The notes under the pieces: generated by a model
The model's input: only the letters and a program-made list of their open reading frames with translations
Databases searched by the model: none
Told to the model about the DNA's origin: nothing
Part shown: positions 27,786 through 57,028 of the stretch, piece after piece
How positions within the stretch are numbered: position 1 is the stretch's first letter
Layout: each line of letters starts with the position of its first letter
Program-made: the position numbers and the translations under genes
Source: Marinicella algicola
GTDB taxonomy: Bacteria > Pseudomonadota > Gammaproteobacteria > Xanthomonadales > Marinicellaceae
Direction of reading: 5' to 3'
NCBI RefSeq assembly: GCF_028401385.1
Contig: NZ_JAQOMR010000001.1
Span: 4,194,501-4,258,500, forward strand
DNA length: 64,000 nucleotides

Positions 27786-28138
27786 ATTTTTCTCCCGGCG
27801 GCGCGGCGCGGCGCCAGCGACAAAAGCGAACCGCCATAAATCAGGAATCGAGAGGAATATCAACCAGCCCTCTGCCTGTGCGTCATCTCTCGCGGGGACA
27901 GTGGCAGGCAAGAAGACGCCATACGGCATCGCACGACCGCACCGGTGCCGGAAAGGCGCGGCGGTTTTTCTGCATCATGACGCCGCCGCCAAAATCCGCT
28001 CGGGTCGGGACCGGTGGACAAAACATGCGAAACTGGTCGCTGCGTCCTTCAATCCGGTTGAACCGGATCGGAGCTACAAATTATCGTTTCGGCCGTATGA
28101 TCCTGTCGATCCTCGCTTCATTCCGGACGGATCATGCT

Positions 28139-34875: not shown

Positions 34876-37800
34876 TTACCACTTTACGCGGAAGCCGACA
34901 TTGCCGGCGTAGCCGTAGGTGCCGCTTTCGAAACCCATAGAGGCGGAGATTTCGCCGTAGACACCGTAGTCTCTCTCGTTGGCATCCTGCCAGTCATAGG
35001 TGCCTCCGAACCCGATCTCGCCCGACCAGCCGCCGAGTTTTGATTCTGCGACATACACCTGCTCGATCGTTGCTTTGGTGGAGCTGTTGAAATCGTAGAA
35101 GACATTTGCGATGCCGTAGATATTGCTATGGCGCGAAAGACCCGTCTGTTCGTACCAGTCGTTCTCGCGTTCCAGGGCCATCCCAAGTCTCGCCGTGAGG
35201 CTGTTGCCGTAGTTGAATTCAACATCGTCACTGTAGGCGCCCGTGAAGCTTTCAACATTTGTTGATGACCAGGCCAGCTGTGCCTGCGGCGTGAAGATCA
35301 GATCGTTGCCGAAGCCGATCTGCTTGCCGGTTTCCATTGAAAGTGCATAGCCGAAGGCTGAGGTGTTATCGATGCCATGCTGCAGATCTTCTGCCTTCAG
35401 TTCACTGGAATACCAGGTGGCTTCAGCCTGGCCGTCGGCGTAGAAACCATTGTCGCCATACCAGGTCACCGTTGCGCCGAGCCCCCAGCCCTCAATGTTC
35501 ATCTTGCTGTTGCCATAGCCCGACTGGAACTTCGCCTCACCTGTCCGGTAGAGGCCTGTCAGACCGCTGATCAGCCGTCCATGCTCGTTATCGATGAACA
35601 ATCCATCGAGGCCGGACTGCAACCCGAAGCGGGACAGATCGTATTTATAGTCATATGTCACTGACTGCGGATCGACGTGGGTGTAACTGCCAGCCATGCG
35701 CGCCCAGAGATTTTGCACGGCGGGCGTATTTTCATTCGACCGCTGATATGGCGTTGGTTCCGTTGGAGCGCCTTTGATGCTGACGGGCGCGGCCATGGGG
35801 GCATCATAGGCCCAGTAACGTTTGCCGACCCGCTGGCGCAGCGTCGTCAACTTGTTCATCTCCAGCAGCACCGATTGATAGCCTTCGTACAGCGGAACAT
35901 ATGGCTGGACCTTTGGTGTCGGTGGCGCGGGAGGCCCTGGAGGGATTGGCCCATTCGCAAAGGATGTCAGGTAAAGTCCAGGCGCGTAACCGGCACCGGG
36001 ATCGCCATTGAGGTCATATTCAAGACTGTAGGCATAGATGCCCGACGCTGTCGTGTTGTTTTTCTCATCTTCAATGATGAATTCATTCTTGTCGACAGCA
36101 CTTGAGTTGGACATGTCTACGACAAGGATCGAACCAACTGATCCAGACGTACCGACATCGGCGATGTCGATATCGGTGATACCGTCAACCTTGCCGCCGA
36201 GTGTCAACACGTCCGATTGAAGGGCACCAAAATCAACATCGATAGCCAGTCTGCCCTTTTTGCTGGTGTAGTCGCCACCGACGATGAAATTGCCGCCAAA
36301 GGCGCCATCCTGCATCGACAATGTACCCTGATTGGTGAGGTTGCCGCTCAGATTGAAGCTTTGCCCCAAGCCCGCACCAGCAGTCACGCGAGAGCCGCTG
36401 AGCATTGCGAAATCGCCCAGATCATTGGCATTGCCGCCGTCATAACCGTCGAGCGCCATGCCGTCGTCAACAAAGCCGATGGCCACATTCTCGTTGAGCG
36501 TGAACTGCTCCCAATTGGTGATGTTGCGCCCGGCCAGATTGGCGTTGTTGGCTGCAAAGGTTACCTGGTCGAAATCTGAGGTAATCGCGCTTTCCGGCGC
36601 GCCGCCATCTTCACCGCCGTCCAGAATGGCAGCCGGGAATGAAGGAGATTCGGCGACGGAAATCAGAGCCGTATCATTACCGCCCTGTCCGTAAAATCCA
36701 CTGTTCAAGGTGCCGCCGGACCAGTTGAATATATCGACACCCTGGTTGGCTGCCGGCGTGCCTGAAGGCGCGAAATCGCCATAGATATCGCCGGTCCATG
36801 AACCGCCTGCCAGATTGAATGTCGAGTTTCCGCCACCCATCACCGCCGTGCCGGTCACCGTGCCGGTGGTTGTCAGGGTCATGTTGGTGCCGGCCTGATC
36901 GTCCGCATTGTAAAACGCGAGCTGGTTGTTCGATCCGGAAGCATCAATAACCAGATCCTTGCCAAAGATAATATTGGCCTGGGTTGCCGCCTGACCGGCG
37001 CCAGCACGTTCGGCAAAGCCGACCGCAGCCTGTGCGCCGCCTGTCGCTGTAATCGTTGCCTCTTCCAGCGACAGGGTTGTAATATTGCCCTGGCTATATG
37101 CGCTCACGCCGTAACTGCCCGAACCTGAAACATCAATGGTAGAGTTATAGGCGCTGGGTGCCAGCGTAACGTCCGCCGTACCGGTACCGAGCGCTTCAGC
37201 ATAAAGGCCATAGCTGTTGCTGCCGGAAACGGAGAGGGCGCCGCTGGTATAGGTGATGCTGGCATTGCCGGCATTGGCTGTGTCCTGATTGGTCACATAA
37301 ATGCCGTGGGAGCCATCGCCGCTGGTCTGCAAGGACGCGACATCGCCATTGAAGATCGCCGATCCGCCTTGGGAGGCCTCCATGTAAACGCCGTAGGAAT
37401 CTTGACCCGAAGTGGCGATTTTGGCTCCGTAGGTTTCACCCGAAAAGGCTGCGGTCACATTACCCTTGCCGTAGTTCTTGAGGTAGAAGCCGTTGGAATT
37501 GTCGCCCTGGGTGGTAATGTTCGAATTATCCTCCGCTACGGTAATATCTGCTGTGCTGCCTGCAGATTTGATTTCCGCAGCGATACCGTGAGATCCCTGT
37601 CCGGTTGTTTTGGCATTTTGGACAGTGGAGTGAAGATTGATGGCGCCGGCAGCAGAAACGGCGTAGGCGCCATGCGCGCCGTCCCCTTCGGTGGAGAGAA
37701 TGAGTGTCCCATCATCCGTTCGGTTTTGTACCAGCATGTCCACCGAGGCAGAAGCGCCCGTGCTGGCATAAATACCGTGTGCGGCATCACCGACCGTGGA

Positions 37801-39410
37801 GATGGTGCCCTGAGAATAATAGGTCTCCACATCACCATCAATGGCGGTTGCAGCCAGACCGTAGGAACCGTCGCCCTGGGTTTTTACCGTGCCACCTTGA
37901 AGGCCTGCATAGGCCGTACCACCACTATCATAGGATTGTGCGTATATGCCGTGCGCATTCGCGCCGTAGGTCTGAATGGCAAGCGGGTGGGTTTGCTGGC
38001 CAACGAAGGCATGGGCCTGGCCGGTGCCTCGGGCAAGAGCAAATACAGCGTGGGAACCCGTTCCCTTGGTCGGATCGGATGCATCACCCGTCGTCACAGA
38101 CCCGTTGCGGAAGTCGATTTTTGCATCGCCAGCACCGGCCGCGTTGTAGATATACGAACGAACGCCGGAAGCATTGTCTCCTTTGGTAACAATTGTAGCA
38201 CCACTCATATCAATGCGGGCGTCGCCGTTCCGGGCATTGATTGTGTAAACACCGTGGCTGCCATCGCCCTCGGTCGTTATGGTTCCCCACCGATCTTCGC
38301 ATAGGCATCACCGTAGGTGGAATTATAAGCCAAAACGGCGGCGGCCGATTGACCCTTTGTCGTGACCGTTCCGCCATTTAACATGACTAAGGCCGTGCCG
38401 GTAACCGATTCGTCATTGCCTTTGATTAAGGAGTGTAGGCCGGCTGCGTAATCTCCCTCGGTGGTGACGCTTCCGGAAAGCATTGCCAAATTGGAGTCCC
38501 CGGACCCTTGATTTTGCGAAACCACCGCTGACCCGTCTTGGTCGCGGCCATTGGCAGCTGTGGAGAGCGCGTCGCCAGTCGTCAGAATTGTCATGCCAGA
38601 CAAGGTGACATCGCTGTTTGACGGACCTGCGGCAGTAGAGTTCACCGCGGCCGAGTTGGCTGCGTGCATTGTGACAGACCCGCCCGTCATGGTGATGGCG
38701 CTTGTGTCACCCGCAGAAGAGCGCGGAAAGGTCTGCGCCCTGATGCCTGTCTGTTTCGAGGCTCCGGCACTTGCATTGCCGACGATCGTGCCACCTGAGA
38801 CGTCGATCACCGACGAGCCAGAACCCTCGTTAAACAGCCAAACACCGAATGACTGATCGCCGTTAAGCTCTATGCTGCCGTCCGACATGCTGAAATCGTA
38901 ACTGGCATTGGGTGTATTAGTGTAGGAGCCAATAAAGACCCCGCCGCTGCCATCGCCCTGAGAAACCAGTGCTCCGCTGGCAAATGTCGCGCTTATAGAG
39001 CCGTCCGTCGTGCCGCTCACTGGTATATTGACCGCCGCCACGTATTTTGAGTCGACATAAAGAGTACTCGGCGGGTTGGTTATTGTCCCGCTTCCCGTAT
39101 CGATGTTCACGGCGATGCTGGCGTTTGTCGCCGATGTGTTCGGCGTAATCGTGACGCCGTCCGTCACGTTCACGCCATTGCCGAGATTGAGTGTGAGGTC
39201 GGTGATATTCGAGTAGGTGATACCGGAACCGTAAGTCCCGCTCGCGCAAGTCACGGTCGGTCCTGTTCCGCACTCGTTATCGGCATGAGCCACGCCAACC
39301 GGAACCCCGGCAGCGAGCGCTGCAACGATCATCGCCCGAGCAGAAACGGACGAGGACATGGAGAAATGCCGGTGATTGAGGCGGCGTTCTCTCTCTTGAT
39401 ACTTTAACAT
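34876..39410 (-). CDS. Large type V autotransporter (one-base frame break)
   Basis: Outer-membrane autotransporter of about 1,510 residues. Start MLKYQERERRLNHRHF (ATG 39408-39410, CGGGAGA upstream), then an export signal (IVAALAAGVPVGVAHA). The passenger is a beta-helix of many ~30-40-residue repeats with a recurring turn such as GDGSHGIYA, GDNSNGFYL and GQDSYGVYM. A proline-rich linker (IPPGPPAPPTPKVQPYVP) precedes the C-terminal barrel, which begins near WARMAGSYTHVDP and ends in FRVKW, an aromatic terminus as usual. The frame breaks after AYAKIGG at 38285-38288 (4 C); a fifth base restores GGGTITTEGDGSHGV. The passenger's target is unknown; adhesion is a typical role of the family. Confidence 0.9.
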
Positions 39411-39786: not shown

Positions 39787-42008
39787 ATGCAGGGAGGTTC
39801 CAGTCTGATGCAGAAATTTTACCGACCGCAGCCGCCGGCTATTGAGCACGATGCGATGACCGGCCGCTTTTCGGGTGAGGCGCAGCCGGGCACAAATGTG
39901 AGATTAACAACCAGTGTTGACGAGGTTGAGCGCATGACGGCCTCAGACGAACAAGGTCGTTGGCGGATCTCAATTGGTGGGCCGCCGACGCCGTATACGC
40001 GCTTCTTCATCAGTGTATCTGACCCGGCGAGCGGGGCGGAATCCGAGCAGATTTGTTTCACCTTCGCCGGAAACCAACCAAGACTGGAAAACCTCTATGC
40101 CTGCCCGGACGCTGCCTCTGGTGTGAGCCAGCCAGGCGCTGAGATTACAGTCTACGGGCCGGATGGCGCCGTTTTCGGTCGCTGTTTCGTTTTTGACAGA
40201 CACGGCACATGGGCAATCAAATTCCGCAACAGGGTAGGCGCGCGCGCGGATCTGCATCGTCGCAAAATGTATGAACGGCAATTATGCTGTGCCGCAATTC
40301 GTAGAGGTACAGCCTTTCGTAGTTGAGGAGTGCGGCATCGATCATGCATGTGGCCACGGAGCGCGGCCTTATGAAAAACTGTCTTTGTTCGACATCGATA
40401 ACGGCCGGCCGGTCGCCCGGACGACAGCAACCCAGAGCGGATCATGGTCCGTGGTGTTCGAACAGAACCTCCCGGAGGGCGCGCGGGTCCAGATCGCCAC
40501 GGCTCAGGCGGACGGCCGGAGCGAACCGGGCCCAATTGTAAACATAGCGATCGGCGGTTGCCTCATGCCTGCGATCATCGGCATCGACAAGGCTTTGATC
40601 TGGGGCAGGGCGGTGCCCGGCTATACGGTCATGGTCGAGCGCTACAGGAACGGGTTGCTGCAGGAGACATATGAGCCGGTGAAAACGGCGTCGGACACAA
40701 GCTGGTATTTGAAATTGCCGGCTCCACCTCAGTCTGGCGATTTGTTTGCGGCAAGAACAGCCGCACTGGTGAAGCGGTCAAAATTCTATAATGCCTTGCC
40801 TTTCGGCGAAGTGCGACAGGCGGTCCCGATCATCCGGAAAATCGACGAAAAGGGTGCCAATGGGCTCGCCGAGCCCGGCCAGTTTGTTATTGTCTCGACG
40901 CGTAGCGCTGGCGAGCTTTTGGCGGCTGCCTGCGACGAAAGCGGCGCCTGGCGAACCCCCAATCGCTGGAGCGACTATGGCGTGCACGATCCCGCCCGTG
41001 AACTTTTCTTCTTCGAGGTGGCCGAAACGCTCGATTCAGGCATCATCGCGAGTACTTCGGATTACGTTGCCTGCTATGGCAGCGCAAGCGCATCGCCCCC
41101 GCTGCTCCAATCATGACCCAGGCCGACGGCAACACTTTTGCAGGCACGGAAGCGACCCTTCAGACCACTCTCTTCATCTACGATCTGAACAATTATGGCG
41201 ACACGGTCAACTATCCGGCAATTCCTGTCCACGAGGACATGAGCTGGACATCCGATGATGTGTGTATCTTCGATCAGACCGATGATGGTTCAACCAGGAT
41301 CGCTTTGGCGGACGTGGTTTACGCAATCGCAACAGACAAATCGACGGGTGACCTTGGTCCAACATCGCCGCCTTCGCTGAACTACACGGTCGGCACACCG
41401 CCCAAAAAGCTCGACCGTTGCCGCCGGACGTGCTCGATATTACGCGCGGGTGCGTCATTCAGGGTTATACTATACCGCAGTCTTTGGTTGTGATTTACGT
41501 TTTGCTCGCGGGCGGGGAGGCGCTTCCCCTGAAGTCTCTGCACTGCAAAACGAATACGTTCAGGTGGCAGGTTTACGGCGACTTCAATCAGCCTTTGCCC
41601 CCGGGGTCCTTGATATCCACTTGGGCCTACTTCGATGACGGGGGTCCTTATTACGCCAATGACTCACACACAAACGTTAAAACCGTAGGGTATCCCACCA
41701 TTCCGGTGCCGGAAATTGTCTCGGTGACAACAGATCAGGTCTCGGTAAAGCTTTCCGATTCGAAGCACTATTATGAGGGGTGGCGGCCGAGTGATGGCAT
41801 GCGTGTTGTTTCATACTGGCCGGACCCGGACGCCGACCCGGTCACAACGCCTACAACGATATCGGTCCCCTTCACGGACGAAGAAAGCAACTCTCCCATC
41901 AAGCTGCCCGTTGGGTCCATGCTCTACCTGACGGCGTGCCGCGTTTCAGATAACTCCATGTCGGAATTTGTCCGTGAGGCGGTTAGTGGCGCCGCTGGCG
42001 ACGACTAG
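39787..42008 (+). CDS. Array gene A: multi-Ig-like-module protein (three frame breaks)
   Basis: First of seven paralogues; about 740 residues after correction. I choose ATG 39787 (MQGGSSLMQKFYRPQ), eight bases after GGAGG; 39781 is too close. Modules of ~85 residues follow, of the type GEAQPGTNVRLTTSVD ... GRWRISI and GAEITVYGPDGAVFG. Breaks: the GC tract at ~40237-40249 (restoring ARICIVAKCMNGNYA), the 5-C run 41096-41100 (restoring SPPAAPIMTQADGN) and the 5-A run 41404-41408 (restoring PKKARPLPPDVLD). The C-terminal module reads YEGWRPSDGMRVVSYW. No signal peptide or membrane segment. The stop codon lies inside a 52-base palindrome. Function unknown. Confidence 0.75.
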
Positions 42009-42052
42009 AGCATCGGGCGTTTAGTTTAAATCGCCCGATGCTCTAGTCGTCC
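42001..42052. repeat. Palindromic element with TTTAGTTTAAAT loop (copy 2), 20-bp perfect stem
   Basis: GACGACTAGAGCATCGGGCG (42001-42020) pairs perfectly with 42033-42052 around TTTAGTTTAAAT, the same loop as at 9357-9396. The last two codons and stop of gene A lie in its left arm. It may serve as a transcript end or be a mobile REP-like element. Confidence 0.85.
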
Positions 42053-42504
42053 CATAACGCATTGGCCTGCGGGGGCGGGGGCGTTGCAGAGAGTGCCAGC
42101 CTGACCCTGGCATTTCGAAGCACGGTGAAAAACGAAACACAGGCTTTCGGGATAAAGGGCCGAGCCGTTTTTGCACATCATGCAATGCAACCTCAGGCTT
42201 TTTAGAAAAATACACGCTAAAGATGTTACATTATCGATCCCGTAAGAGCCTGTCTGACGCCGCCGCATTTTTGAATCTATAGTATTGAAAAATATAAATT
42301 TTTTGCATTAATTGCAACAATTTTCCCCGCATATGGGACGTGTCTGCGTCATTACAATTAGAGACTAGTAAGCTCAATAAATATACCTCTGATTGTATTT
42401 TTAAATGGACAACCAGAGGTATATTCCACTACCCTAAAGAAAGCGCCGGAGATTGAGCCGCCGCTGCGAAATTCCTGCCAACGCCATTCAAACGGAGATG
42501 ACCC
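42053..42504. promoter_or_regulatory. Long upstream region of gene B with inverted repeat
   Basis: 452 bases with no gene, increasingly AT-rich towards gene B. A perfect 11-base inverted repeat, ATATACCTCTG (42381-42391) and CAGAGGTATAT (42414-42424), encloses 22 bases. Its right arm overlaps GACAACCAGAGGTAT (42408-42422), a 15-mer almost repeated upstream of gene D at the same distance from the start codon. Likely promoter or regulator site. Confidence 0.55.
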
Positions 42505-44682
42505 ATGAACATGGAAGTCGTGGACAACGCGTCCCTCATGCAAAACACTGCGCGGATTATTCCGCCCGAAGTCAAATTCACTGCGTCACCGGCAACCTTC
42601 AGCGGAACCGCGAAGCCAGGCCTGACAATCAAACTGGCCAGCGGGATTGACGGGCAGGCCATCACGGTCACCGTCGGTTCGGACGGTAAATGGAAAATCC
42701 CGCTGGGCGAGCAGCCGCACTGGTATACCGTTTTCAGGCTTTGGGCCTCCGATTGCGACACCGGTGCAGAATCCGCCAGGGTGCAGTTCACCTTCGGCGG
42801 CAACAACCCGACGCTGGAAGACGTCTATGTCGGCGCGACCACCGCTTTTGGCTTTGCTCCGCAGGGTAGCGAAGTTGCTATCTATGCATCGAGCGGCAAG
42901 CTCATTTCCCTGGGCCAGACGTCTGCCGGAAACTTCTGGCACGCCCGTTTCGTCCCCGCCAACAGCCCAAAGCCCGGCGATACGGTTTGCCTCATCGCGA
43001 AGCTTCCCAGCGGCAACACGTCGATGCCATACTTCACCAAGGCACATGCATTTTCGGTTGAACGCGCCGGGGTCAGCAAGGCTGAAGGATCCGGCGCGCG
43101 GCCCGGTGACATCGTCCAGCTTTTTGACCACGAAAGCGGAGAGCTGATCGAAGGCACTACCGCCAGCGATGACGGCGACTGGAGCATCACGCTCGCCAAC
43201 GCGCTCCCTTCCGACAGCCTCATCCGGTTTCAGCGTATCCACAAGAATGGAGCCGTGTCCGATGGGCCGGTTGCCGTGAATGCGAGCAGTGACTGCCTGG
43301 CACCGGCTGTCAACGGTATCAACTCCGGCTTTATCTGGGGTGCTGGCCTCCCCAATGCCTCGCTCTCGTTGAGCGTCTATAACAGCATGGGAGCCTATCA
43401 GCACGGCTATTCCGGAGTACCGGCGGATGCGGACGGCCAGTGGAAACTTACGCTACCCAGTCCCGCCGTCCAGGGCTATTTCTATAAGGTGACGGCATCC
43501 TACAACGGATCTACGTCCAGCTTTTATGGTTGCGTCCAATATAAATATGAGCGGTCCACCCCGCCAATGGTCGATCAGATATCGAACCACGCCTTCGCCG
43601 GCTGGGCTGATATCGGTCACGCTGTCGTGATCTCCACAGAGGCACTGGGTGTAGTCTACCGCCTAAACGCCGACGATACGGGCCATTTCCAGACGCCCAA
43701 TCTGAGCACATTGGGTGTCTCTGATGGCGACCTGGTCTTCTTTACGACCCTTGGCTCAACAAACCAGCAGGCCACACATGCCTCGACCTCGTCCTACGAG
43801 ACAAGGAAAGCGAGCTCAAGTTATATTCAGCCCGACATTCCAATCATGACAACCTATGAACCGACACTCTTCGCAGGCACAGAGTCCGATACGCAGTCGA
43901 CGATCACTGTCCACGATAGGACCAATGACGACTCCACGGTCAACTTTCCAGCGGTTCCTGTCCAAAGCGACACTAAATGGTCAACGGATCAGACGGGGAT
44001 CACAATCATCGAACCTTCAGAAATCGGCAATCAGGTCTACGCAATTGCGACGGACAAGTCGAGCGGCGACCTTGGCCCAACCAGAAAATCAAAAGACTAC
44101 ACAGTCGGTGTTCAAAGCGGCGGCACTCATGTTCCTATCCCGCCGGAAATCGAAAATCCCAGCAGCGGCACTTTGATTACCGGTCAGACAATGATCAACA
44201 CCTATGTCACGGTCAGTTATACATACACGGACTATAATCAATCTCCTCCTCAGCCAGCCGAGGTAGACTTAGGCACAGTGGGGGCCACCGGAACAGACTG
44301 GGCAATCAAGTCCGGTCCCGTTCCCAACGGAGGTGTTGTTAAGGCGACAGCTCAGTTTGTCGACAAATCAGAAATGTCGGATCCCTACTACCGCAAAATT
44401 GGTGTAACCAACATTGGCTCGCCCGCTCTGACCTCTGTAGGAACAACCTACTGCAAAGGTAAGGCGGCGGTACAGGGCCAAAGAATACTCGCCTGGCGGA
44501 TCAGCGACGGCACAAAGATGGTCGACTATCAATGCGCAGACAATCAAGTATTTTTCACAGCGCAGTATGTGAACGGCCTGACGTTGGAAACCGGTGACCT
44601 CTTGAACCTCGTCTCAAGCTATACGCCCGATAACGGCAGTATGACGCCGTTTGTTCGCAGAGAAGAAGGTTATGGCGTCTGA
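42505..44682 (+). CDS. Array gene B: multi-Ig-like-module protein, intact
   Basis: The one array member whose frame is unbroken, so the best reference: 725 residues, ATG 42505 after AACGGAGATGACCC. N-terminal leader of ~30 residues (IIPPEVKFTASPATFSG), then tandem beta-rich modules: GTAKPGLTIKLASGIDG ... GKWKIPLGEQPHWYTVF; GFAPQGSEVAIYASSGKL; GSGARPGDIVQLFDHESGEL; GAGLPNASLSLSVYN; and others. It ends with a C-terminal module ILAWRISDGTKMVDY ... DNGSMTPFVRREEGYG. The 'PG-x-x-V/I ... G-x-W' pattern resembles bacterial Ig-like domains (Big type). No signal peptide, lipobox, sortase signal, RTX repeats or membrane helix is visible. Product location and partner are unknown. Confidence 0.85.
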   Translation: MNMEVVDNASLMQNTARIIPPEVKFTASPATFSGTAKPGLTIKLASGIDGQAITVTVGSDGKWKIPLGEQPHWYTVFRLWASDCDTGAESARVQFTFGGNNPTLEDVYVGATTAFGFAPQGSEVAIYASSGKLISLGQTSAGNFWHARFVPANSPKPGDTVCLIAKLPSGNTSMPYFTKAHAFSVERAGVSKAEGSGARPGDIVQLFDHESGELIEGTTASDDGDWSITLANALPSDSLIRFQRIHKNGAVSDGPVAVNASSDCLAPAVNGINSGFIWGAGLPNASLSLSVYNSMGAYQHGYSGVPADADGQWKLTLPSPAVQGYFYKVTASYNGSTSSFYGCVQYKYERSTPPMVDQISNHAFAGWADIGHAVVISTEALGVVYRLNADDTGHFQTPNLSTLGVSDGDLVFFTTLGSTNQQATHASTSSYETRKASSSYIQPDIPIMTTYEPTLFAGTESDTQSTITVHDRTNDDSTVNFPAVPVQSDTKWSTDQTGITIIEPSEIGNQVYAIATDKSSGDLGPTRKSKDYTVGVQSGGTHVPIPPEIENPSSGTLITGQTMINTYVTVSYTYTDYNQSPPQPAEVDLGTVGATGTDWAIKSGPVPNGGVVKATAQFVDKSEMSDPYYRKIGVTNIGSPALTSVGTTYCKGKAAVQGQRILAWRISDGTKMVDYQCADNQVFFTAQYVNGLTLETGDLLNLVSSYTPDNGSMTPFVRREEGYGV

Positions 44683-44736
44683 CAGAGCGGTGAGACGTTG
44701 ACGGCAGCAGACTTATGCCACCGTTGCAGCCCTCAG

Positions 44737-44764
44737 GACAGCCGGCAAGCAATTGCCGGCTGTC
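44737..44764. terminator. Perfect 12-bp hairpin after gene B
   Basis: GACAGCCGGCAA and TTGCCGGCTGTC pair around GCAA, 55 bases after the gene B stop. No T tract follows, so it may slow decay of the 3' end or end transcription inefficiently. Similar strong hairpins follow genes C, D and F. Confidence 0.6.
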
Positions 44765-44966
44765 ATCCGCGACGGTCTTGCTTCGAGAGGCAGAAAAACA
44801 CATCAGAATACACGTTAAGCGTGTTTCATGCGGCTTGCCTGTTCCACGCGACCAGCAGTTTCGACGACCAGCGCCCATTCCAATCACGAGCTGTATTCGC
44901 CTATTCGGCAGCGCTTCAAGCCATTGGCAGAACAGCTCCGGACCAACCACAATGATGGAGAACGAC

Positions 44967-46557
44967 ATGTCTAAGGAGAACGGGGACCAGACGTCCTCCA
45001 AACCGAACAGCCAGCGACCCTTGCCCCTGGAATCAAATTAGAAATCACCAAAGGAACCTTGTATGGGACTGCCGAGGCCGGACAGATTGTCAAGATGACG
45101 AACAGTGTCAGCGAGCAGGTCAGAAAATGCTATGTCAGCGACGAGGGTAAATGGCTTATTCCCGGCTACGAGCAGCCGCGATGGTACACCAATTACCGGG
45201 TCTGGGTTTGCGACCCCGTGACGGGCGCCGAATCGGACAAAATCAGCTTTACATATTCCGGCAGAAGTCCACGGCTAACAGATCTCTATGTCAGCAAAAC
45301 GACGGCTTTCGGTTTCGGGCCGGCAGGCACGGAAATCACGGTTTACGGCCCGGCTGGCCAACTGCTTGGAAAGGCCTTCATTTTCGGCATGGAAGGCCCG
45401 TGGTCGGTGAATTTCAGTGAAACGCTCAATGCCGGAGAAAAATCTGCATTACGGCGAAATTTCCGAACGGCAATCACACCATGCCGATCTTCGGAAACGC
45501 CCAGACCTTTTCGGTCGACACGCGCAATATCGACAGGGTTGCCGGCTCGGGTGCCGGTGCCGGGGAACGAGATCCTGTTGCTCGACGCAGCAAGTCAGAA
45601 CCTCATTGCAGAGGCCAAGGCAGACGAGCACGGCACATGGTCGAAGTCATTCAGCAAACCGCTCGAGGCTGGCACCCGCATCGACATTATGCGTGCAGAC
45701 GAGCGTGGCGCGGCAACCGCGGGGCCAACATTTGCAGTGACCACCGAAAATTGTTTTTCGCCGGTCATCGAAATGGCCTTCGGTACCTATGTGGGCGGCA
45801 GGGCCAACCCGGGACAGCAGGTCAACTATATCCATCTGCGCTATGGTCAGCAGATTGCGGCAGGTAACGCTATCGCAGACCAGTCAGCATCCTGGGCGGC
45901 TGAGGGCCTCGACCTGCGACGCGGCGACTGTATCATCGCGACCAGTTCGATCGACAACGGCAAAGAACTTCGCCGCTCTACAGTTCGGTGATCGTCGGTG
46001 AGGCCCGGCCGGGCATGCCTGAAGTCATGGAAGCGCGTGCAGATGGAGCCAGAGGGTTTGCAAATCCGGGTGACTATGTTGTTGCGTCCTGTGTCGATCG
46101 CGGCGTGATTGCCTGGGTCAAGACCGCGCCCGACGCGGACTGGGCGCTGGATTGGTTACCACTGCCGCCCTGGAGCGATAAAACCATGCTTGTCCAGTTT
46201 ACGGCCTATTCATCGCTGACCGGTGCGGGCATCAATACACCCTCGTCCTGCTCGGCCTTCCGCTATGCAGACAAAGATTCTAGCCAACCACCGAAGCCTA
46301 CAATTGAGGGTTACGAAAACTCGGTTTTCAATGGCACAGAAGCGATGGACAATACGACGATCGTCGTATGGAATCGCAGCGATAACGACAATGCGGTCGG
46401 TCTTCCGAGCCAGAAAGTCGCCAATTCCAGATGGACGGTTACGGCATTCGACCCGCCAGCCTCCGGAGAGGTCTGTTACGCTGTTGCCACTGAAACAGAT
46501 GAGGACAGCAACCCTGGAGCGACTTCGCTGCGCTCGGAATATTACACGGTTCCCTAA
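44967..46557 (+). CDS. Array gene C: shorter multi-Ig-like protein (four frame breaks)
   Basis: About 530 residues after correction. ATG 44967 (MSKENGDQTSSKPNSQ) follows GGAGAACGAC. Breaks: the 4-C run 45024-45027 (restoring LPPGIKLEITKGTLYGTAEAG), the 5-A run 45438-45442 (restoring GEKICITAKFPNGNHTMP), an extra G at 45562-45565 (AGAGNEILLLDAAS) and a missing C at ~45980 (RRLYSSVIVGEARPG). It then runs intact to TAA at 46555-46557 after SEYYTVP. All other members continue with one or two more modules and the WR-x-SDG domain; C lacks them and no such sequence follows, so it looks truly truncated or a short variant. Confidence 0.65.
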
Positions 46558-46601
46558 GGCGTTCTGTTCAGCGGCAAGTAACGACCGCGAAATGACAACA
46601 T

Positions 46602-46629
46602 GCGGGCAGGAACGTGCGTTCCTGCCCGC
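46602..46629. terminator. Perfect 11-bp hairpin after gene C
   Basis: GCGGGCAGGAA and TTCCTGCCCGC pair around CGTGCG, 45 bases after the stop of gene C. No clear T tract. Confidence 0.6.
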
Positions 46630-47112
46630 ACTTTGCTTTTGCCGAACATTTCCCGCCTGGATTTTGCGGGAGCAGGCCGGGATCCGTGACATTCTCATTC
46701 CAGGTGCGCTGGCTAGGTCCACTTTTGCAATGCGCCGGACACAGGCCTTCTCGGCGCGTGACTAACGCCTTTGCGCTGCACCATGCAGGCGTTGCCGCCG
46801 TTTCTCTGCCTGGCGTTTGCTTGCAAAGCTGGCGAGCACGCAATTGGCCGCTTCCGACCTCGCAAGACAGAACACAGAGCGGAAAACAGCACTGTTTGGG
46901 CCAGAATACGAGATTTTCCGAACGGACTTGCATCGTTCAATCCGCAATCGGAAACGCGCACGTAACGTCCTCGAAAATTGTACAACCATCTGAAATAATG
47001 TGATTTTTTATTGTCATAAGTGTCCGCGAGGGAGCGTGAATCCATGTTTGTCGCCTGCGCTCAGTATACACCATTCACTGCGACATGTAACTATAGGTTG
47101 CAAAAATATATA

Positions 47113-47127
47113 GACAACCGAAGGTAT
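47113..47127 (+). promoter_or_regulatory. Upstream motif of gene D shared with gene B
   Basis: GACAACCGAAGGTAT differs at only two positions from GACAACCAGAGGTAT before gene B. Each ends 82-83 bases before its start codon. A shared regulator or promoter element is the simplest explanation. Confidence 0.45.
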
Positions 47128-47210
47128 TGTGGATTAGGTTTTATCAGGCGCCGGACATGAAGCCGCTGCCGCAAAGACACCAGATCAAAGTCATTTTACG
47201 GAGAAGGACC

Positions 47211-49614
47211 ATGTCTATTGAGACAGGGAACCCTGTGGTTCCCACATCCATTACCGAGCGTCCGCTACCGCCCGCAGTGAAGTTCAACGCGGCCACCGGA
47301 ACGTTCACCGGCAAGGCCGAAGCAGCAAAAACCGTTCGGCTGACCAGCAGCGTCGATCAGCGCATGCACACCGCCACCGCCGATGCCAATGGCGACTGGA
47401 CGATTGCACTCGGCAAGTCCCCGCGTTGGTACACAACATTTGAAATATGGGTTTGCAGCCCCGAAGCGGCGGCAAGTTCCGAGAGAGTCAAATTCACCTT
47501 TGGCGGCAGCAATCCGCGGCTTTCCGATGTTTATGCAAGCGAGACACTTGCTTTTGGTTGCAGCAAGGCCGGCACCAAGGTCGTCGTTATTGGTCCCAGA
47601 GGTCAGGTTCTCGGGCGTGGCATCGCTTTGGGTAAGCATGGCGTATGGTCGGTTCACTTTCGGGAGAGCCTGAGCGCCGGTGACAGGGTCTGCGTTCTGG
47701 CGGAATCGTTCAGCGGAAACACCTCCATGCCGTTCTTCACCAAAGCAGAGGCGTTTTCCGTCAATGACCGCAATATCGGCCACATTGCAGGATCCGGCGC
47801 AATGCCGGGAGATCAGGTCCAGCTGTATGATACTGCAGCCGATCAGGTGATCGCTTCCACCATCGCGACCGAAGCCGGAGCGTGGGAGGTCTCGTTCTGC
47901 GATCCGATTGAGACCGGCACCCGCATCGGCGTCGAGCGCGTCCATCTGAACGGGACGACTTCCAATGGCCCCGTATTCGTCGCGACGGCAAACGACTGCC
48001 TTGCCCCGGCAATCACGTCGTTTTCGGGCACGCAGATCGGCGGCATGGCAGACCCCAGCCTGCTGGTAACCTACACACAGCTTCGCAACGGCCAGTCCAT
48101 CCACAGCGACACGGTAAGCCCGCGTACGAGTGGCTTCTGGTCGAGCGACGATGCCACCAATTACTATCCTTTCGACTTCCAGTCCGGGGACATTCTCTGT
48201 GCTATCACAAAGAGCCCGGACGGCACCCAGCAATCTCTCGTGTCGTCAAACGTTACGGTCGATAGTCCCAGGCCGGGCACGGCGCTGGTTACTGACATTG
48301 ACGAGAATGGAGCGAAGGGATGGGCGGAACCGCACAAATTCATTGTTGCCTCGACAGCTGAGGACGGTGTGGTCTGCGTGGCCGAGATCCGGTTTTCTTG
48401 GCCATTGGTCGCTTGACTGGACAAGCTATGTCGGCGCACTCCCGTCGACGGCAATCGTGGTTTTCGAAGTTTTCGATTCGCTGGTGCAAAACGACTTGGC
48501 AGCAAGCTCCTGCTTGAGCGCGCGCTATGCCGATATACTGGCAACCAAGCCAGCCGCGCCTGTGATCGAAAAATACATCCCGGCCGAAATCGGTGGAACG
48601 GAAGCGACGAACAATACAGCTGTGGTCGTCCATGACATTACGAAACAGCAGGATGTCAACCCCGCTGGTGCGACCGTTACTGCGAACAGCTGGGATGTTA
48701 AGCCCACAGGCAGCGAGAAGCCGGACAATGGCGATGAAATCTACGCTGTCGCATGGACCGTGAATAACGGTAGATTCGGGGTCAACAGCGATCAATCCAC
48801 CCCGAAAAAGGTTGACGCTCTCGTACCGCCTGCACCGACGATCACAAAACGCTTTCCGGCCGATATCGCGGGCGGCGAGAATCTGCCCCAGCAATCCGAC
48901 CAGATGGTCACCACCATCTATATTGCCAAGGAAAGCGATATGGCCCGCACGCCGGTCGGCAATAGTGGTCATCTGACCGGCATGACCTGGGAAATCAACC
49001 CGGTCACCCCGCCACGGACCCCCGGCGAACTAATGGTTGCATGGGCGCAGACCGATGCAGGCGCAAAGTCGTTGGAGACAACGTTCACCATCGTTTCCGC
49101 CGACAAGCCGATTCCACCATCCATCGGCAACTGGAGCGATCCCAACGTCCAGGGCAGCGGCTGGTCCGGCACGACAGTGGAACTGTTCCTGAATGACCAG
49201 TCGATGGGTACCAATGTGGTCAATGCGAGCCGGTCATGGACCGTCAATGTCGGAACAACGCCGGCCACAGGCGATCATCTGAAAGCGGTCGCCACCAACG
49301 TCGACGGCACCTCGGATCCGTATACCATTACTGTCGGAAGCCCTCGGGCGCAATTGGTCATGGACGATACCGCGATCACGACAGCCAGCGCCGGTGGAAC
49401 CGTCGATACGGACAACCAGATGATCCTTGCCTGGCGTCAGTCCGATGGTCTGTTGGTCGTCCAGTATCCAGTGGGCACCGCCGGAGCGTTCACCGCTACA
49501 TATCTGAGCGGATCGAATATCCAGAGTGGCGATCTGCTGATGTTCACATCGCAGACCAATGACGGCGACCCCGAGGCGATGATGTCCACCTATCAGGGCC
49601 AGCAAGTAACCTAA
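47211..49614 (+). CDS. Array gene D: long-form multi-Ig-like protein (one extra base)
   Basis: About 800 residues. ATG 47211 (MSIETGNPVVPTSITERPLP) follows ACGGAGAAGGACC. Modules include KTVRLTSSVDQRMHTATADA, KAGTKVVVIGPRGQVLG, GSGAMPGDQVQLYDTAAD and ADPSLLVTYTQLRNGQ. Near 48384 one extra G breaks the frame; removing it gives CVARSGFLGHWSLDWTSYVG, matching gene E's WVARSGWDGYWSADW. The second half runs to TAA at 49614 with a module absent from A-C (GHLTGMTWEINPVTPPR, MVAWAQTDAGAKSLE) and the end module ILAWRQSDGLLVVQYPV. The N-terminal leader is nearly the same as in E and G. Confidence 0.78.
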
Positions 49615-49640
49615 CGAAACTGCATCCATCGCAATAAAAG

Positions 49641-49666
49641 ACAACCGGCACACCATTGCCGGTTGT
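49641..49666. terminator. 10-bp hairpin after gene D
   Basis: ACAACCGGCA and TGCCGGTTGT pair around CACCAT, 26 bases after the gene D stop, preceded by AAAAG and followed by TTAC. The most terminator-like hairpin in the array. Confidence 0.65.
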
Positions 49667-49716
49667 TTACACAAGCCAGGCGACGCTGCTGCAACGGCGC
49701 TGGGTCAAGCCACGTT

Positions 49717-51095
49717 AACGGAGACGGACCATGTTGATTGAGACAGGGAACCCGGTGGTTCCCGCATCCTGTGCCGCGCGGCCCTTGCCGCCCGCATTCA
49801 CCTTCAGTGCTGCTGCGGCTACCTTTTGGGCACGGCAGAACCCGGACAGACGATCAGGCTTACCGGCAGCGCCGATCAGCAGATGCTGATCACCACCGCG
49901 GATGCCGGCGGTCACTGGAAGATCACGCTTCACGAAACGCCGCGGCTCTACACCCGCTTCGAAATCCTGGCGTTGAACCCGGATACAGGGGTCAGTTCCG
50001 CCGCGGTCAGGTTCATCTTCGGCGGCACCAGCCCGAAATTCTCGGGTCTCTATGCCAGCCGAACCCTTGCCTTCGGGCACGGCAGGCCCGGCGAGAAAGT
50101 CACCGTTTATGGCCCGAAAGGTCAGGTTCTCGGCCAGTCCTTCGTCTTCACCCGGCTCGGTATCTGGACTGTCAAATTCCAGGAGAGCGTTACGGCCGGG
50201 GACAGGCTCTGCGTGCTGGCCGAAGCGTCTGATGGCAGCACATCGATGCCGTTCTTCGTCAAGGCCGTGGCCTTTTCGGTCGATAGCCGGAATGTCGGCC
50301 GCATTGCCGGTTCCGGTGCTGAACCGGGCGACCGCATCCAGCTGTTCGATACAATGGCGGGGCAGGCGATTGCCACGACCATTGCCAGCGATGCCGGTGG
50401 GTGGGCCGTATCGTTTCATCAACCGCTTGAGACGGGCAAGCGCATCGCAGTGCAGCGCACGCATCTCGACGGAGCGACATCACAAGGCCCGGTCTTCACG
50501 GCCATCAAGAATGACTGTCTGGCGCCGGTGATCAACACCTGTTCGGGCAATCAGCTGGGCGGCATGGCAGAGCCCGGCCTGCAGGTCAGCTATGCGCAAT
50601 ATCGCAACAGCCAGATGATCCGAAACGGTTCTGTGGGCGTGGAAGCAAGCGGCCTGTGGACCAGCAGTGACGCCAATGTCTACCAGCCCTTCGACTTCCA
50701 GACCGGTGATGTTCTCGTTGCCAAAACGGAAAACAGCGAAGGCACGCAGGTATCGCTGATCCCCTCCTGCGTCACGATCGGCGGCAACCGGCCCGGTGCT
50801 CCGTTGGTGATGCACATCGATCAGAACGGCGCCTGGGGTTATGCCGAGCGGCTGAAGAATGTGATCATCTCGACCGAAGACGAGGGGCTGATCTGGGTCG
50901 CAAGAAGTGGCTGGGACGGCTATTGGTCAGCAGACTGGACGCCGGCCGTCGGCACGTTGCCAACCACAACACGTGTGCTCTTCGAAGTGCTCGATTCATG
51001 GCGGCTGACAAACGACGCACAGACATCCATCCCCGCCATCCGATATGCCGACGCCGCTGCAAGTGTGCCCGAAATCCCGGTGATCGACACCTATA
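49717..51095 (+). repeat. 1,379-bp direct repeat, copy 1 (5' part of gene E)
   Basis: Matches 54581-55959 with a constant offset of 4,864 bases, hence no gaps, and about seven substitutions that I noticed (for example GCCGGGG against GTCGGAG near 50196/55060). It begins 14 bases before the start codon and ends abruptly at CACCTATA. Confidence 0.92.
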
Positions 51096-52141
51096 TCCCT
51101 TCAGATATCGCCGGGATTGAGACTACGCCGGGGACTGCTGTGGTCGTCCACAACCGCAACAATGAAGATCAGGCGATCAATCCGGGTGGGGCACCGGTCA
51201 CCGCCGGACGTTGGGAGGTCAAACCAACAGGCAGCGATGTCCCGAAAGACGGAGATGAAGTCTATGCCGTGGCCTGGACGCTGGAGAACGGTCATTTCGG
51301 CGTGAATTCAGGTCAATCTCCGGACGTTCAAATCAGCGCTTTTGTGCCCCCTGAGCCAGTTGTAACGAGAGCGTTTCCAGATGATGTCAAAGGCACTGAG
51401 CAGATTACCGATCCAGCGGACCAGGCAATGACCCGGATATTGATCAGCCCGAAGGCGGACGCAAACCGAACGCCGGTCGGCATCAGTCCGCACCTTTCCA
51501 GCCTGGACTGGGAGATTACGCCGGATTTCACCTTGACCGTTGGCGAGGCAATGGTTGCATGGGCACAAACCGATGCCGGTGCGAAATCGCCGGAAGCCGA
51601 CTTCATCATTGAGGCGGCAGCAAAGCCTCAACCGCCGGTCATCGGGGATTACATATCAGCGAATGTAAATGGAAGCGGCACATACGCGACGACAGTCAGC
51701 CTGTCTTTGAATGAGCAGGTCATGGGAACGAGCGTTGTTCAATCGGATCTTGTCTGGACCGTCAATACCGGCAAAGCACCTGTGGCCGGTGACAAGCTCA
51801 AGGCCATCGCGACCGACAGCAGCGGCAACAGTTCCGACCCATTCTACATCATTGCCGGCCAGGCTCCGACCACGTTGACCGTTGATGCCGTCACCATGAC
51901 TGCGGTTACAGCGTCTGTGACGACCGACAATCAAAGGTTGCTTGCCTGGCGCCAGTCCGACGGGATGAAAGTCCTCGACGGGCTGATGAATGGCCCAGGA
52001 CGCTCCACCGTTTCGTACCTGGCCGGTGCGCGCGTTGAGGCAGACGATGTGGTCAGCATCAGCGCACAGGATACAGCTAGCTCGCCAACCGAGGGAACGA
52101 TGACACATTTCGATGGCAAGCCTGTCGGCTATGTAGCGTAA
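49731..52141 (+). CDS. Array gene E: long-form multi-Ig-like protein (one-base frame break near start)
   Basis: About 803 residues. ATG 49731 (MLIETGNPVVPASCAARPLP) after ACGGAGACGGACC. The leader frame ends early; one T added to the 4-T run 49824-49827 restores ATFLGTAEPGQTIRLTG, after which the frame is open to TAA at 52141. About nine modules follow, e.g. KVTVYGPKGQVLGQSF, GSGAEPGDRIQLFDTMAG, AEPGLQVSYAQYRN, WTPAVGTLPTTTRVLFEV, GISPHLSSLDWEITPDF, and the end module LLAWRQSDGMKVLDG ... MTHFDGKPVGYVA. The first 1.38 kb is almost identical to gene G, including the same frame break. Confidence 0.78.
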
Positions 52142-52319
52142 CCGGCCGCCAAATCCGAACGGCGCGACCACCGCCGACCGAAGATACGATCCAGCCTGAC
52201 CTACAGGCCGAGCTATGCCATCGATTACCAGTTAAAGTTGCATTTCAGAATTTTTGTTCCCTGAGGTTTTGTCTCACGGAGCAAAGCAGCCAGTCCAAAC
52301 CAGCTTTACGGAGAAAACC

Positions 52320-54462
52320 ATGACACAGACAATCAACAGAGAAACCGGCCTGCTTCCGCCTGAAATCGAATTCGACGCGGAAAGCGGAAGCTTCAGCGGC
52401 TTTGCTCCCCGGAAAGTCCGTACGACTGACCAGCAGCGCCGACCAGCAAATGTGCTCGACGATGAGCGCCGAGGACGGTCGCTGGCATATCGAACTCGGA
52501 CATGTGCCGCGGCTGTATACCATCTTTGAAATCTGGGCCTGCGACCAGCAAAACGGCACATCGTCGCCAAAGGTGCAGTTCATCTACGGCGGTAGTCAAC
52601 CGAAGCTTTCCGATGTTTATGCCAGCAAAACCGTCGCTTTCGGCGAAATCAAAGGTGGGAATGAAATCAGCGTCTATGGCCCGGACGGCATGCTTCTCGG
52701 ACGTGACTTCACCATTGGCGCCCGCGGCACGTGGACAGTGAAGTTCCCCATGCCGGTCGAAGCTGGCGACAAGATTTGCGTTATTGCCAGACGTCTCACC
52801 GGTGCAACATCCTTGCCGCTTTTCATTACGGCAAAGACCTTTTCTGTGGACGACCGCAATGTCGCTCACGTCGCCGGCTCCGGTGCCAGGCCGAGAGAGA
52901 AAGTCCAGCTCTTCGACCGCTCGACATCAGAGTTGATAGCAGAGACATGTGCGACCGACGCAGGAACCTGGTCGGTTTCCTTCTGCAAGTTACTTGAAAG
53001 CGGCATGTCGGTCCGCATTCGCCGTCTCGACCCGTCCGGGAGTACCGCGCAAGGACCGGTTTTCACAATGACGACCAAACGAAGCCTGCTGCCTGTCATC
53101 CAATATTGCGGTTTGTCAGAACTTTCAGGCATTGCCGCCAGCGGGTTGACCGTCTCTTGCGACCAGTATCGCGACGGCATCAGGATAGCGAGCCACCAGG
53201 TGAAAGCGGACAGCAGCAACCAATGGAGAACCGGAAACGAATTCATCCATTTCAAGGCGGGTGATAACTTGGTTGCAACGACGAACTCGATCGATGAGAC
53301 GGCTTACTCGCTCGTCTATTCGGCAGTGACCATTGGGGAGGACCGGCCGAACGCTCCTGTGGTTTTATCGATCGACCAGAACGGGGCCTCGGGAACCGGG
53401 GAGCCCGGGAACTTTATCGTGGCATCCACGGCAGAGGTTGGCGTCTTCCGAATCCAGACGATCGCCGACGACAACACCTGGACCATCGACTGGATCAGCA
53501 TCCTCGGCACGTTGCCGAAATCGACTATCGTCTATTTCGTGCAGTTTGTCTCCGTCGAATCTGGCTCCTACTCGCCGACCTCGGCTTATGTCGGGCGTTA
53601 TGCTGATGCCAATGGCGCTGTGCCGGACGCACCGGTTATTGATGGCCAGGATGCTGTCGGTGCGTTCAATGGCATTGAAGAGACAGAGAACACAACGGTT
53701 CAGATCTACAACCTGATGCACCAGAGTATGGCGATTGCGAATATCCCTGCATTGGTCCAACCTGATCACTCCTGGGTCCTGGCCCCGGACTACCCGCCGC
53801 AAACCGGCGACGAAGTCTGGGCCGAAGCCACCGCAATCGGTGCCGATGGCCCCGGGCCGACCTCACCAAAATCGGCCTACTATACGGTCCGGCCCGAACC
53901 GCAGGTTGGCGTGCCGTGCCCACCGGAAATCCAGTATGCGAAATATCCTTATTCGTTTGGCATGGCACAGCTGGATACTTGGGTCACGCTGACCGTGACA
54001 CTGCCGGATGAGTCTCCCCAGACGGTTGGTCCGATCGCCACAGAGCCCGATAATTCCTGGTTCTTCGACCTGTCGGAAGACTTTGGCGGCAGCTTCCCGT
54101 CCGGAACGAAATTTTCCGCGACTGCGGCATATGGTGTCTCGGACGCGCCGTCTGACCCATACGTCAAGGTAACGGGTATAACCACAATCGGCGAGCTCAC
54201 CGTCGAAACCGTGTCACATACAGACGTGACCGGAACAGCGCCTGTGAAAAACATGGTCGTCAAGGGGTGGCGCGGAAGCGACGGTAAGTTGCTTGTAGAC
54301 TATAATATGCCAGGTGACGGCACCAGTTTCGTGGCGCCTTATCTGGACGGAATGACCCTGCCGGACGGTGATCTTCTTTGGCTCGTTTGCGCATATGCAG
54401 GCAATGAATCCATGACACCCTTCAACCGCAAGCAGGAGGGCTATGTCGCGTCCGATATTTGA
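52320..54462 (+). CDS. Array gene F: multi-Ig-like protein (one frame break near start)
   Basis: About 713 residues, short form like A and B. ATG 52320 (MTQTINRETGLLPPEIEFDA) after ACGGAGAAAACC. At the 4-C run 52407-52410 the frame shifts; dropping one C gives FSGFAPGKSVRLTSSADQQM (two missing bases would also fit). The main frame continues to TGA at 54462 with modules GGNEISVYGPDGMLLG, GSGARPREKVQLFDRSTSE, GEPGNFIVASTAEVG and PQTGDEVWAEATAIG. It ends in VVKGWRGSDGKLLVDY ... NESMTPFNRKQEGYVA, closest to gene B's end. Confidence 0.78.
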
Positions 54463-54473
54463 TCGTCGCAATT

Positions 54474-54503
54474 GGCCGGCGGCAGAATGCATTGCCGCCG
54501 GCC
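54474..54503. terminator. Perfect 11-bp hairpin after gene F
   Basis: GGCCGGCGGCA and TGCCGCCGGCC pair around GAATGCAT, 12 bases after the gene F stop. No T tract. Confidence 0.6.
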
Positions 54504-54580
54504 CATCACGTAATTTGCAGAGCTTTCGAAGCTGAGCGGGCCGAGGAGGCCAAGCAGGTAAGGGCTGCACATCCAAAACG

Positions 54581-55959
54581 AACGGAGACGGACCATGTTG
54601 ATTGAGACAGGGAACCCGGTGGTTCCCGCATCCTGTGCCGCGCGGCCCTTGCCGCCCGCATTCACCTTCAGTGCTGCTGCGGCTACCTTTTGGGCACGGC
54701 AGAACCCGGACAGACGATCAGGCTTACCGGCAGCGCCGATCAGCAGATGCTGATCACCACCGCGGATGCCGGCGGTCACTGGAAGATCACGCTTCACGAA
54801 ACGCCGCGGCTCTACACCCGCTTCGAAATCCTGGCGTTGAACCCGGATACAGGGGTCAGTTCCGCCGCGGTCAGGTTCATCTTCGGCGGCACCAGCCCGA
54901 AATTCTCGGGTCTCTATGCCAGCCGAACCCTTGCCTTCGGGCACGGCAGGCCCGGCGAGAAAGTCACCGTTTATGGCCCGAAAGGTCAGGTTCTCGGCCA
55001 GTCCTTCGTCTTCACCCGGCTCGGTATCTGGACTGTCAAATTCCAGGAGAGCGTTACGGTCGGAGACAGGCTCTGCGTGCTGGCCGAAGCGTCTGATGGC
55101 AGCACATCGATGCCGTTCTTCGTCAAGGCCGTGGCCTTTTCGGTCGATAGCCGGAATGTCGGCCGCATTGCCGGTTCCGGTGCTGAACCGGGCGACCGCA
55201 TCCAGCTGTTCGATACAATGGCGGGGCAGGCGATTGCCACGACCATTGCCAGCGATGCCGGTGGGTGGGCCGTATCGTTTCATCAACCGCTTGAGACGGG
55301 CAAGCGCATCGCAGTGCAGCGCACGCATCTCGACGGAGCGACATCACAAGGCCCAGTCTTCACGGCCATCAAGAATGACTGTCTAGCGCCGGTGATCAAC
55401 ACCTGTTCGGGCAATCAGCTGGGCGGCATGGCAGAGCCCGGTCTGCAGGTCAGCTATGCGCAATATCGCAACAGCCAGATGATCCGAAACGGTTCTGTGG
55501 GCGTGGAAGCAAGCGGCCTGTGGACCAGCAGTGACGCCAATGTCTACCAGCCCTTCGACTTCCAGACCGGTGATGTTCTCGTTGCCAAAACGGAAAACAG
55601 CGAAGGCACGCAGGTATCGCTGATCCCCTCCTGCGTCACGATCGGCGGCAACCGGCCCGGTGCTCCGTTGGTGATGCACATCGATCAGAACGGCGCCTGG
55701 GGTTATGCCGAGCGGCTGAAGAATGTGATCATCTCGACCGAAGACGAGGGGCTGATCTGGGTCGCAAGAAGTGGCTGGGACGGCTATTGGTCGGCAGACT
55801 GGACGCCGGCCGTCGGCACGTTGCCAACCACAACACGTGTGGTCTTCGAAGTGCTCGATTCATGGCGGCTGACAAACGACGCACAGACATCCATCCCCGC
55901 CATCCGATATGCCGACGCCGCTGCAAGTGTGCCCGAAATCCCGGTGATCGACACCTATA
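54581..55959 (+). repeat. 1,379-bp direct repeat, copy 2 (5' part of gene G)
   Basis: Second copy of 49717-51095. Beyond 55959 genes E and G diverge strongly, then share another nearly identical ~58-base patch (51779-51838 against 56669-56728, around GDKLKAIATD). This suggests patchwork recombination among array members. Confidence 0.92.
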
Positions 55960-57028
55960 CCGGAGCCGAATTCGGCGGTTCAGAAGCCTCGATCGGCACC
56001 TATGTCATCTGCTACGATCAGGATTTTATGGACACTGGGATCAACCCAGCCGGTGCGCTGGTCGGCAGTGATGGCCGCTGGGCGTTTACCGCAACATCCT
56101 ACGTTCCGCCGGACGGACATCACGTCTATGCAGAGGCCTGGACAAAGATGAACGGCGTTTTCAGCATCAATTCGCGAAAATCTGCTGCTGTCGAGGTCGA
56201 CAGCTATGTTCCGCCGACGCCGAATGTCCATTTCGGGCACCCCTCGGACATTGAGGGCGATGAACCGGTTCTTCCGACAGACACAAACGAACTCCCCAAT
56301 ATCGTGGTTCACATCGGTTATGCCTCGGTCATGCCGCGGCAATCGATCACCGATAGCGGCCACCTGACCAATGGACAGGACTGGACCGCCACACCCGCGC
56401 AACCACTCAATGTTGGTGACAAGATGGTTGCCTGGGCGCAAACCGATGCCGGTGCGAAGTCCGGCGAGGCGCCGTTCACCATCACGGCAGCGGTGGTCAC
56501 TGTTCCCGTTCCGCCGAATATCACCAACTGGAGTTCTCCGAATATTTCAGGAACCGGCACCTATGGAACAGGCGTCAAATTATACCTCAACGAGCGCTTT
56601 ATGGGAGCGTCCCTCGTTGGCTCGTCACAATCGGGTTCCAGTTGGCTCGTCAACGTCGGAAAAGTCCCGGTGGCGGGTGACAAGCTCAAGGCCATCGCGA
56701 CCGATGGCAGCGGCAACAGTTCCGACCCGTTCTTCATCATTTGCGGTGAAGACGCGACAATTCTCACTGTCGAAGCGGTCACCACAAGAGGACTGACCGC
56801 CAATGTCACGACCGCCAACCAGAGGCTACTGGCCTGGCGCGCTTCCGACGGTTTAAAAGTGATCGACAGCCCACTCAGAGGAATGGGGACCTCCACCGTT
56901 AACTATCTAAGCGGAGTGAGCGTTGAGACAAACGATCTGATCAAATGCTCGGCGCAGGATATGTCTTATTCCAGCACCGAGGAACGATGACCCATTACGA
57001 TTCGAAACCCGTTCCCTATTCCGCCTGA
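54595..57028 (+). CDS. Array gene G: long-form multi-Ig-like protein (two frame breaks)
   Basis: About 811 residues. ATG 54595, same leader as E, with the same break (4-T run 54688-54691). After the shared 1.38 kb its own modules follow: IDTYTGAEFGGSEASIGTY, GRWAFTATSYVPPDGHHVYA, SGHLTNGQDWTATPAQP, VAWAQTDAGAKSGEAPF and NERFMGASLVGSSQSG. The end module is LLAWRASDGLKVIDSP. A G missing at 56981-56982 cuts the frame after STEER; restoring it gives STEGTMTHYDSKPVPYSA and TGA at 57026-57028, parallel to gene E's end. Last member of the array. Confidence 0.77.

Follow-up and report, generated by a model that had tools for sequence, protein, structure and literature searches.

Seven tandem paralogous proteins with Ig-like modules of predicted adhesin-type fold in a Gram-negative genome

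Ig-like modules of the array and the closest described systems

Strings of Ig-like domains in bacterial proteins are usually taken to be surface adhesins. Staphylococcal Bap is a single large wall-anchored protein with near-identical repeats, and its C-repeat region (PDB 7dm0, 6m3a) has an Ig-like fold. SiiE and the other T1SS Big/Ig adhesins (BapA, Blp1/Blp2, and BapP) are likewise strings of Big-type Ig domains. The window, by which we mean the whole 64,000-nucleotide stretch analysed, contains seven paralogous genes, A to G, whose modules are, by sequence and predicted fold, Ig-like domains of the Pfam Big_6, staphylococcal Bap C-repeat, or SiiE type. The first-pass annotation had described these proteins as multi-Ig-like, and that description was borne out with a name for the modules, Big_6 or Bap C-repeat-like.

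Pfam Big_6 (PF17936) was common to B (47.6 bits), C1 (54.4), D1 (70.8), E (88.7), F (52.6), and G (87.8), all above the curated cut-off of 27.6 bits; this family names a domain and not a function. Matches of D2 (23.2 bits) and one piece of A (23.1 bits) were under the cut-off, another piece of A had no match, and the piece of A that ends in the C-terminal module matched no Pfam family at E <= 0.01. Surface proteins accounted for both the closest solved relative in sequence and the four best matches in fold. Foldseek alone ranked other Ig strings first, with an intracellular muscle thick filament in the top row, TM-scores of 0.08-0.10, and Bap C at rank 40. The structure model of B as a whole was of low confidence (mean pLDDT 62.6).

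The array differs from both kinds of adhesin. Bap is one protein with near-identical repeats, whereas the modules of the array have diverged and are distributed over seven proteins; inspection of their starts and ends by eye showed neither a Bap-type secretion signal nor a wall anchor. Compared with SiiE, BapA, Blp, and BapP, the array bears cysteines, has no RTX match, lies in a genome without a T1SS adaptor over cut-off, and scores far under the cut-off of NCBIfam Blp2 (NF040520), which was weak in 4 of 6 array pieces (18.5-49.1 bits; cut-off 750). Ca_tandemer matched 2 of the 6 pieces at 29.8-30.6 bits (cut-off 50).

Layout of the array and relations between copies

When B, E, F, and G were combined into a profile, it matched pieces of all seven genes, colinear in a single order on the plus strand. 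This confirmed the tandem array of seven paralogs proposed from the first reading. The best stretch per piece had E values of 1.5e-8 to 0, and no match was listed beyond the array when stop-free segments of at least 25 aa were scanned in six frames with an E limit of 0.01. The limits given for the array, 39787 and 57028, were correct; A starts at the first, and the tail of G ends at the second in a different frame from the rest of that gene. Protein B matched 15 places in its own genome, all 15 within the array. The C-terminal module claimed for six of the seven genes was found by its own profile at 6 places in the genome (E <= 0.01), one each in A, B, D, E, F, and G, and was missing from C only.

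All seven genes are on the plus strand. Gene A (39787-42008) has frame changes near 40.25, 41.1, and 41.4 kb and its C-terminal module at 41694-41996; its approximately 740 codons are the length of an eight-module gene, as judged by length and not module by module. Gene B (42505-44682) encodes 725 aa in eight Ig-like modules, with the C-terminal module at 44407-44679. It is the only gene open from ATG to stop, and a stop codon lies closely upstream of its start. Gene C (44967-46557) contains frame changes and ends at an in-frame stop (46555-46557) ahead of where the C-terminal module would begin. Downstream of C, a terminator-like inverted repeat with a 13-bp stem (46601-46630) sits in the 653-bp gap between C and D and has no other copy in the window. 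Gene D (47211-49614; nine modules) has a single frame change near 48.37-48.40 kb, and E (49731-52141; nine modules) and F (52320-54462; eight modules) each have a single frame change close to the 5' end. Gene G (54595-57028; nine modules) has frame changes near both its 5' and 3' ends, and its 5' half is almost the same as that of E. Gene spans are about 530-811 codons, spacers between the genes are 116-653 bp, and a leader of the type ACGGAGA..ATG precedes each of B, D, E, F, and G.

Genes E and G share a tract of 1379 bp (49717-51095 in E and 54581-55959 in G, both plus strand) that begins just before the ATG leader and is 99.5% identical, with 7 differences and no gaps. Five of the codon changes are silent and 2 are non-silent. 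Past this tract, E/G identity drops to 43-74% per 150-bp bin. The tract is, to judge from its sequence, a recent duplication or gene conversion. Other paralog pairs were 33-57% identical in the N-terminal third and 18-43% in the C-terminal part, so that the N-terminal modules appear better conserved and the C-terminal half more variable. Taken together, these data show or strongly support seven paralogous rods of eight to nine modules of predicted Big_6 or Bap C-repeat type, C being shorter, with separate translation starts and recent recombination or duplication between copies.

Genomic neighborhood, host affinity, and distribution

A divergent autotransporter (34876-39410, minus strand) neighbors the array and is outside the A-G family. 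Its barrel is in 34876-38208, and an ORF in another frame (38277-39410) was read as its N-terminal part, the gene being apparently split by one frame change. Farther left are obgE, proB, a proA-like gene, rlmH, and an EnvC-like gene (under the family cut-off), as in Sinorhizobium meliloti Ak57. To the right are purD, MatE, an FAD oxidase, and Sua5; in Ak57, a 15-kb interval holds purD, an FAD-binding oxidoreductase, and threonylcarbamoyl-AMP synthase. Since the left block is as in Ak57, the right-block genes are clustered there, and some 1.2 Mb of the circle of that record separates obgE (3,492,198) from purD (951,177), the autotransporter and the array sit where two conserved blocks join. GC3 spanned 0.603-0.697 over eight array pieces and 0.684-0.763 over ten flanking ones; at 0.634, the autotransporter piece was also lower than the flanking genes. 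The array thus differs somewhat from its surroundings in GC3 and may be an accessory block.

Three further observations were made on these records. A gene with an FGE-sulfatase domain (27105-27929, minus strand) lies between rlmH and the proA-like gene, an interval that in Ak57 holds rsfS and nadD and no such gene. The Ak57 record, CP090106.1, is titled 'plasmid pSymB,' but the presence of rpoB, obgE, and purD suggests a chromosome under the wrong label. A 7.3-kb stretch (L051:12362-19680) with DsbD, DoxD, an L,D-transpeptidase, and a response regulator was 89.9% identical to a plasmid of Martelella sp. AD-3.

The first piece of rpoB was 88% identical to Sinorhizobium and Shinella, and purD was 74% identical to Shinella; because of these identities the host is assigned, by sequence and at family level only, as Rhizobiaceae-like. 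Identity of purD was only 48-55% in genomes labelled 'same family.' The kinship labels of the genome sample are therefore doubtful, either the host or the group appears to be mislabelled, and absence from relatives needs to be read with caution. With that caution on the labels, B was matched in 1 of 61 genomes, its own, and the C-terminal module in 1 of 369 class genomes, again its own. The array profile was found in 8 of 398 order genomes (its own and 7 partial) and 10 of 398 phylum genomes (its own and 9 partial), with doubtful labels and at most two candidates scored per genome. Six of the 7 partial matches in the order sample were in open frames of 1772-3146 residues, and the seventh was weak and contained stops.

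Two pattern scans of genome contigs returned 8 and 35 stretches and no relative; such patterns reach mainly close relatives, and records near the host were possibly left out. A pattern scan of viral contigs returned 28 stretches and no relative. In a plasmid collection that includes five Rhizobiaceae records big enough for rpoB, there were 2 records with a match to E (E <= 1e-5) and 11 with a match to B (E <= 0.01). No match reached 60% identity or extended over 80% of the length, and among the matches listed none came from Rhizobiaceae. A full-length relative of A-G was not found in these samples and scans, their kinship labels being doubtful. The search suggested earlier for other genomes with such arrays, performed with the C-terminal module and array profiles, found no second array in the sampled genomes.

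Composition, export routes, and where the rods may act

Trimmed array pieces contained 47 cysteines in 4595 residues (about 10 per 1000), compared to 4 in 11138 (0.4 per 1000) for the nine nearest Bap-like adhesin pieces, 8 of which had none. The autotransporter piece had 0 in 1110 residues, and five flanking genes had 15 in 1892. Fisher's exact test gave 4e-21 when the array was compared with the adhesins, 6e-5 with the autotransporter, and 0.48 with the flanking genes; these values are descriptive, as residues are non-independent and E and G overlap in descent. Lysine plus arginine made up 6.6% of the array, 9.5% of the flanking genes, and 0.1-2.9% of the nine adhesin pieces. The array therefore does not have the cysteine-poor, Lys/Arg-poor composition of T1SS giant adhesins, as defined by the nine pieces and by general knowledge.

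The adhesin control was drawn from 15 loci (L014-L019 and L029-L037) with the frame picked by profile; six without a match were dropped, and L020 and second matches from the same genome were left out. An adhesin composition obtained from wrong-frame readings of several loci was discarded in favor of these profile-chosen frames, and an array count of 58 cysteines in 4844 residues was rejected for out-of-frame residues at piece ends and replaced by the 47 in 4595 above. All seven genes have a particular cysteine in module 2, six of them by alignment and C in the corresponding piece read in another frame; in B it has no partner within that module. Alignment cysteine columns 2, 28, and 29 in E and G were out-of-frame artefacts, as were the initial residues of both genes in alignment A1.

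Inspection by eye found no hydrophobic signal peptide at the array gene starts. The best HlyD-type T1SS adaptor match in the genome was 54.2 bits against a cut-off of 208.65, in a search that covered the adaptor component and with scores that frame errors could lower; the two best matches adjoin MacB and MFS genes. Neither FHIPEP (T3SS/flagella) nor VirB4-type genes were found in the genome. Array pieces scanned had no RTX family (E <= 1, and E <= 0.01 in a further scan) and no autotransporter beta-barrel, which was found only in the neighbor at 34876-38208. A-G use the Bap/SiiE adhesin fold, but the tests made for a T1SS adhesin, for an anchored Bap with a signal, and for an autotransporter all went against them, and they do not resemble the usual adhesins of the T1SS or autotransporter kind. 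Of the earlier proposal of a matrix or surface protein or adhesin, the resemblance in fold stood, but the export signals were missing and the composition was unlike that of either adhesin type.

Our tentative reading, held at somewhat under even odds, is that A-G are an extracytoplasmic repertoire of binding or matrix rods exported by a non-standard route. The rods would act beyond the cytoplasm, perhaps capped by their common C-terminal Ig module, and would leave the cell without Sec, T1SS, T3SS, or a VirB-type T4SS, for example by a T6SS or by release on lysis.

A serious rival, although on balance an unlikely one, is a cytoplasmic family of Ig rods that serve as scaffolds or binding proteins and stay in the reducing interior. 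The starts without an export signal would fit this, as would a cysteine content resembling that of the flanking genes, a Lys+Arg content between flanking and adhesin values, the lone conserved cysteine of module 2, and a genome without FHIPEP, VirB4, or a T1SS adaptor over cut-off. However, the solved relatives nearest by sequence and fold are surface proteins, and expansion and recombination of copies are commoner in surface or secreted repertoires.

The proteins could also be cargo or accessory proteins linked to a T6SS, which we consider improbable. The genome has a T6SS, marked by VipB with IcmF and a ClpB/ClpV-type AAA protein in the same 20-kb stretch, so the idea of cargo for an unseen secretion system has a candidate system. 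Nothing found ties the array to it, however; the two are separated by about 3.7 Mb in contig coordinates, or by about 0.57 Mb should the contig be circular, no array-like module occurs in the 20 kb around the T6SS, and no Hcp, VgrG, or PAAR family was found in the array pieces scanned.

The breaks in the array were judged in the frames as assembled, through controls such as rpoB. Frame changes in 6 of 7 genes, the truncation of C, and the break common to E and G could point to decaying remnants of adhesin genes, that is, real pseudogenes. However, rpoB (G000:C1:576375-580425) is divided over two frames in the same assembly, the MatE gene and the FAD oxidase are two ORFs apiece, purD starts in another frame, and hutH and hutU match their models only partly; hutI and proB were matched over almost their whole models. 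Such breaks in conserved genes, rpoB among them, make indel errors of the assembly the best explanation for most breaks in the array. Since the tract is identical where E and G are broken, that break may be a systematic error or a real change that both genes have in common. With B intact and reading frames conserved among the paralogs, decay has little probability. Overall, the assembly seems indel-rich, and with rpoB itself split, pseudogene calls from it are unsafe.

Least probable of all, a T1SS-secreted adhesin of the BapA/SiiE/Blp kind would share an Ig-like fold identical in kind, but the adaptor matches under cut-off beside MacB and MFS genes, the missing RTX match, the wrong composition, and genes that by span are not giant all argue against it.

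Among these readings, we prefer the extracytoplasmic repertoire. A broader view, possible but doubtful, is that a Gram-negative bacterium has a cytoplasmic or non-classically delivered Ig-rod repertoire, with a conserved front half recombined with variable rear halves and an adhesin fold without adhesin export. A family of seven that keeps an adhesin fold yet shows neither an export signal nor a T1SS adaptor over cut-off, and whose cysteine content is of cytoplasmic type, would bring to light either an internal function of Ig rods or a way of exporting them once folded; the E/G tract and the C-terminal module common to six genes are handles for testing both.
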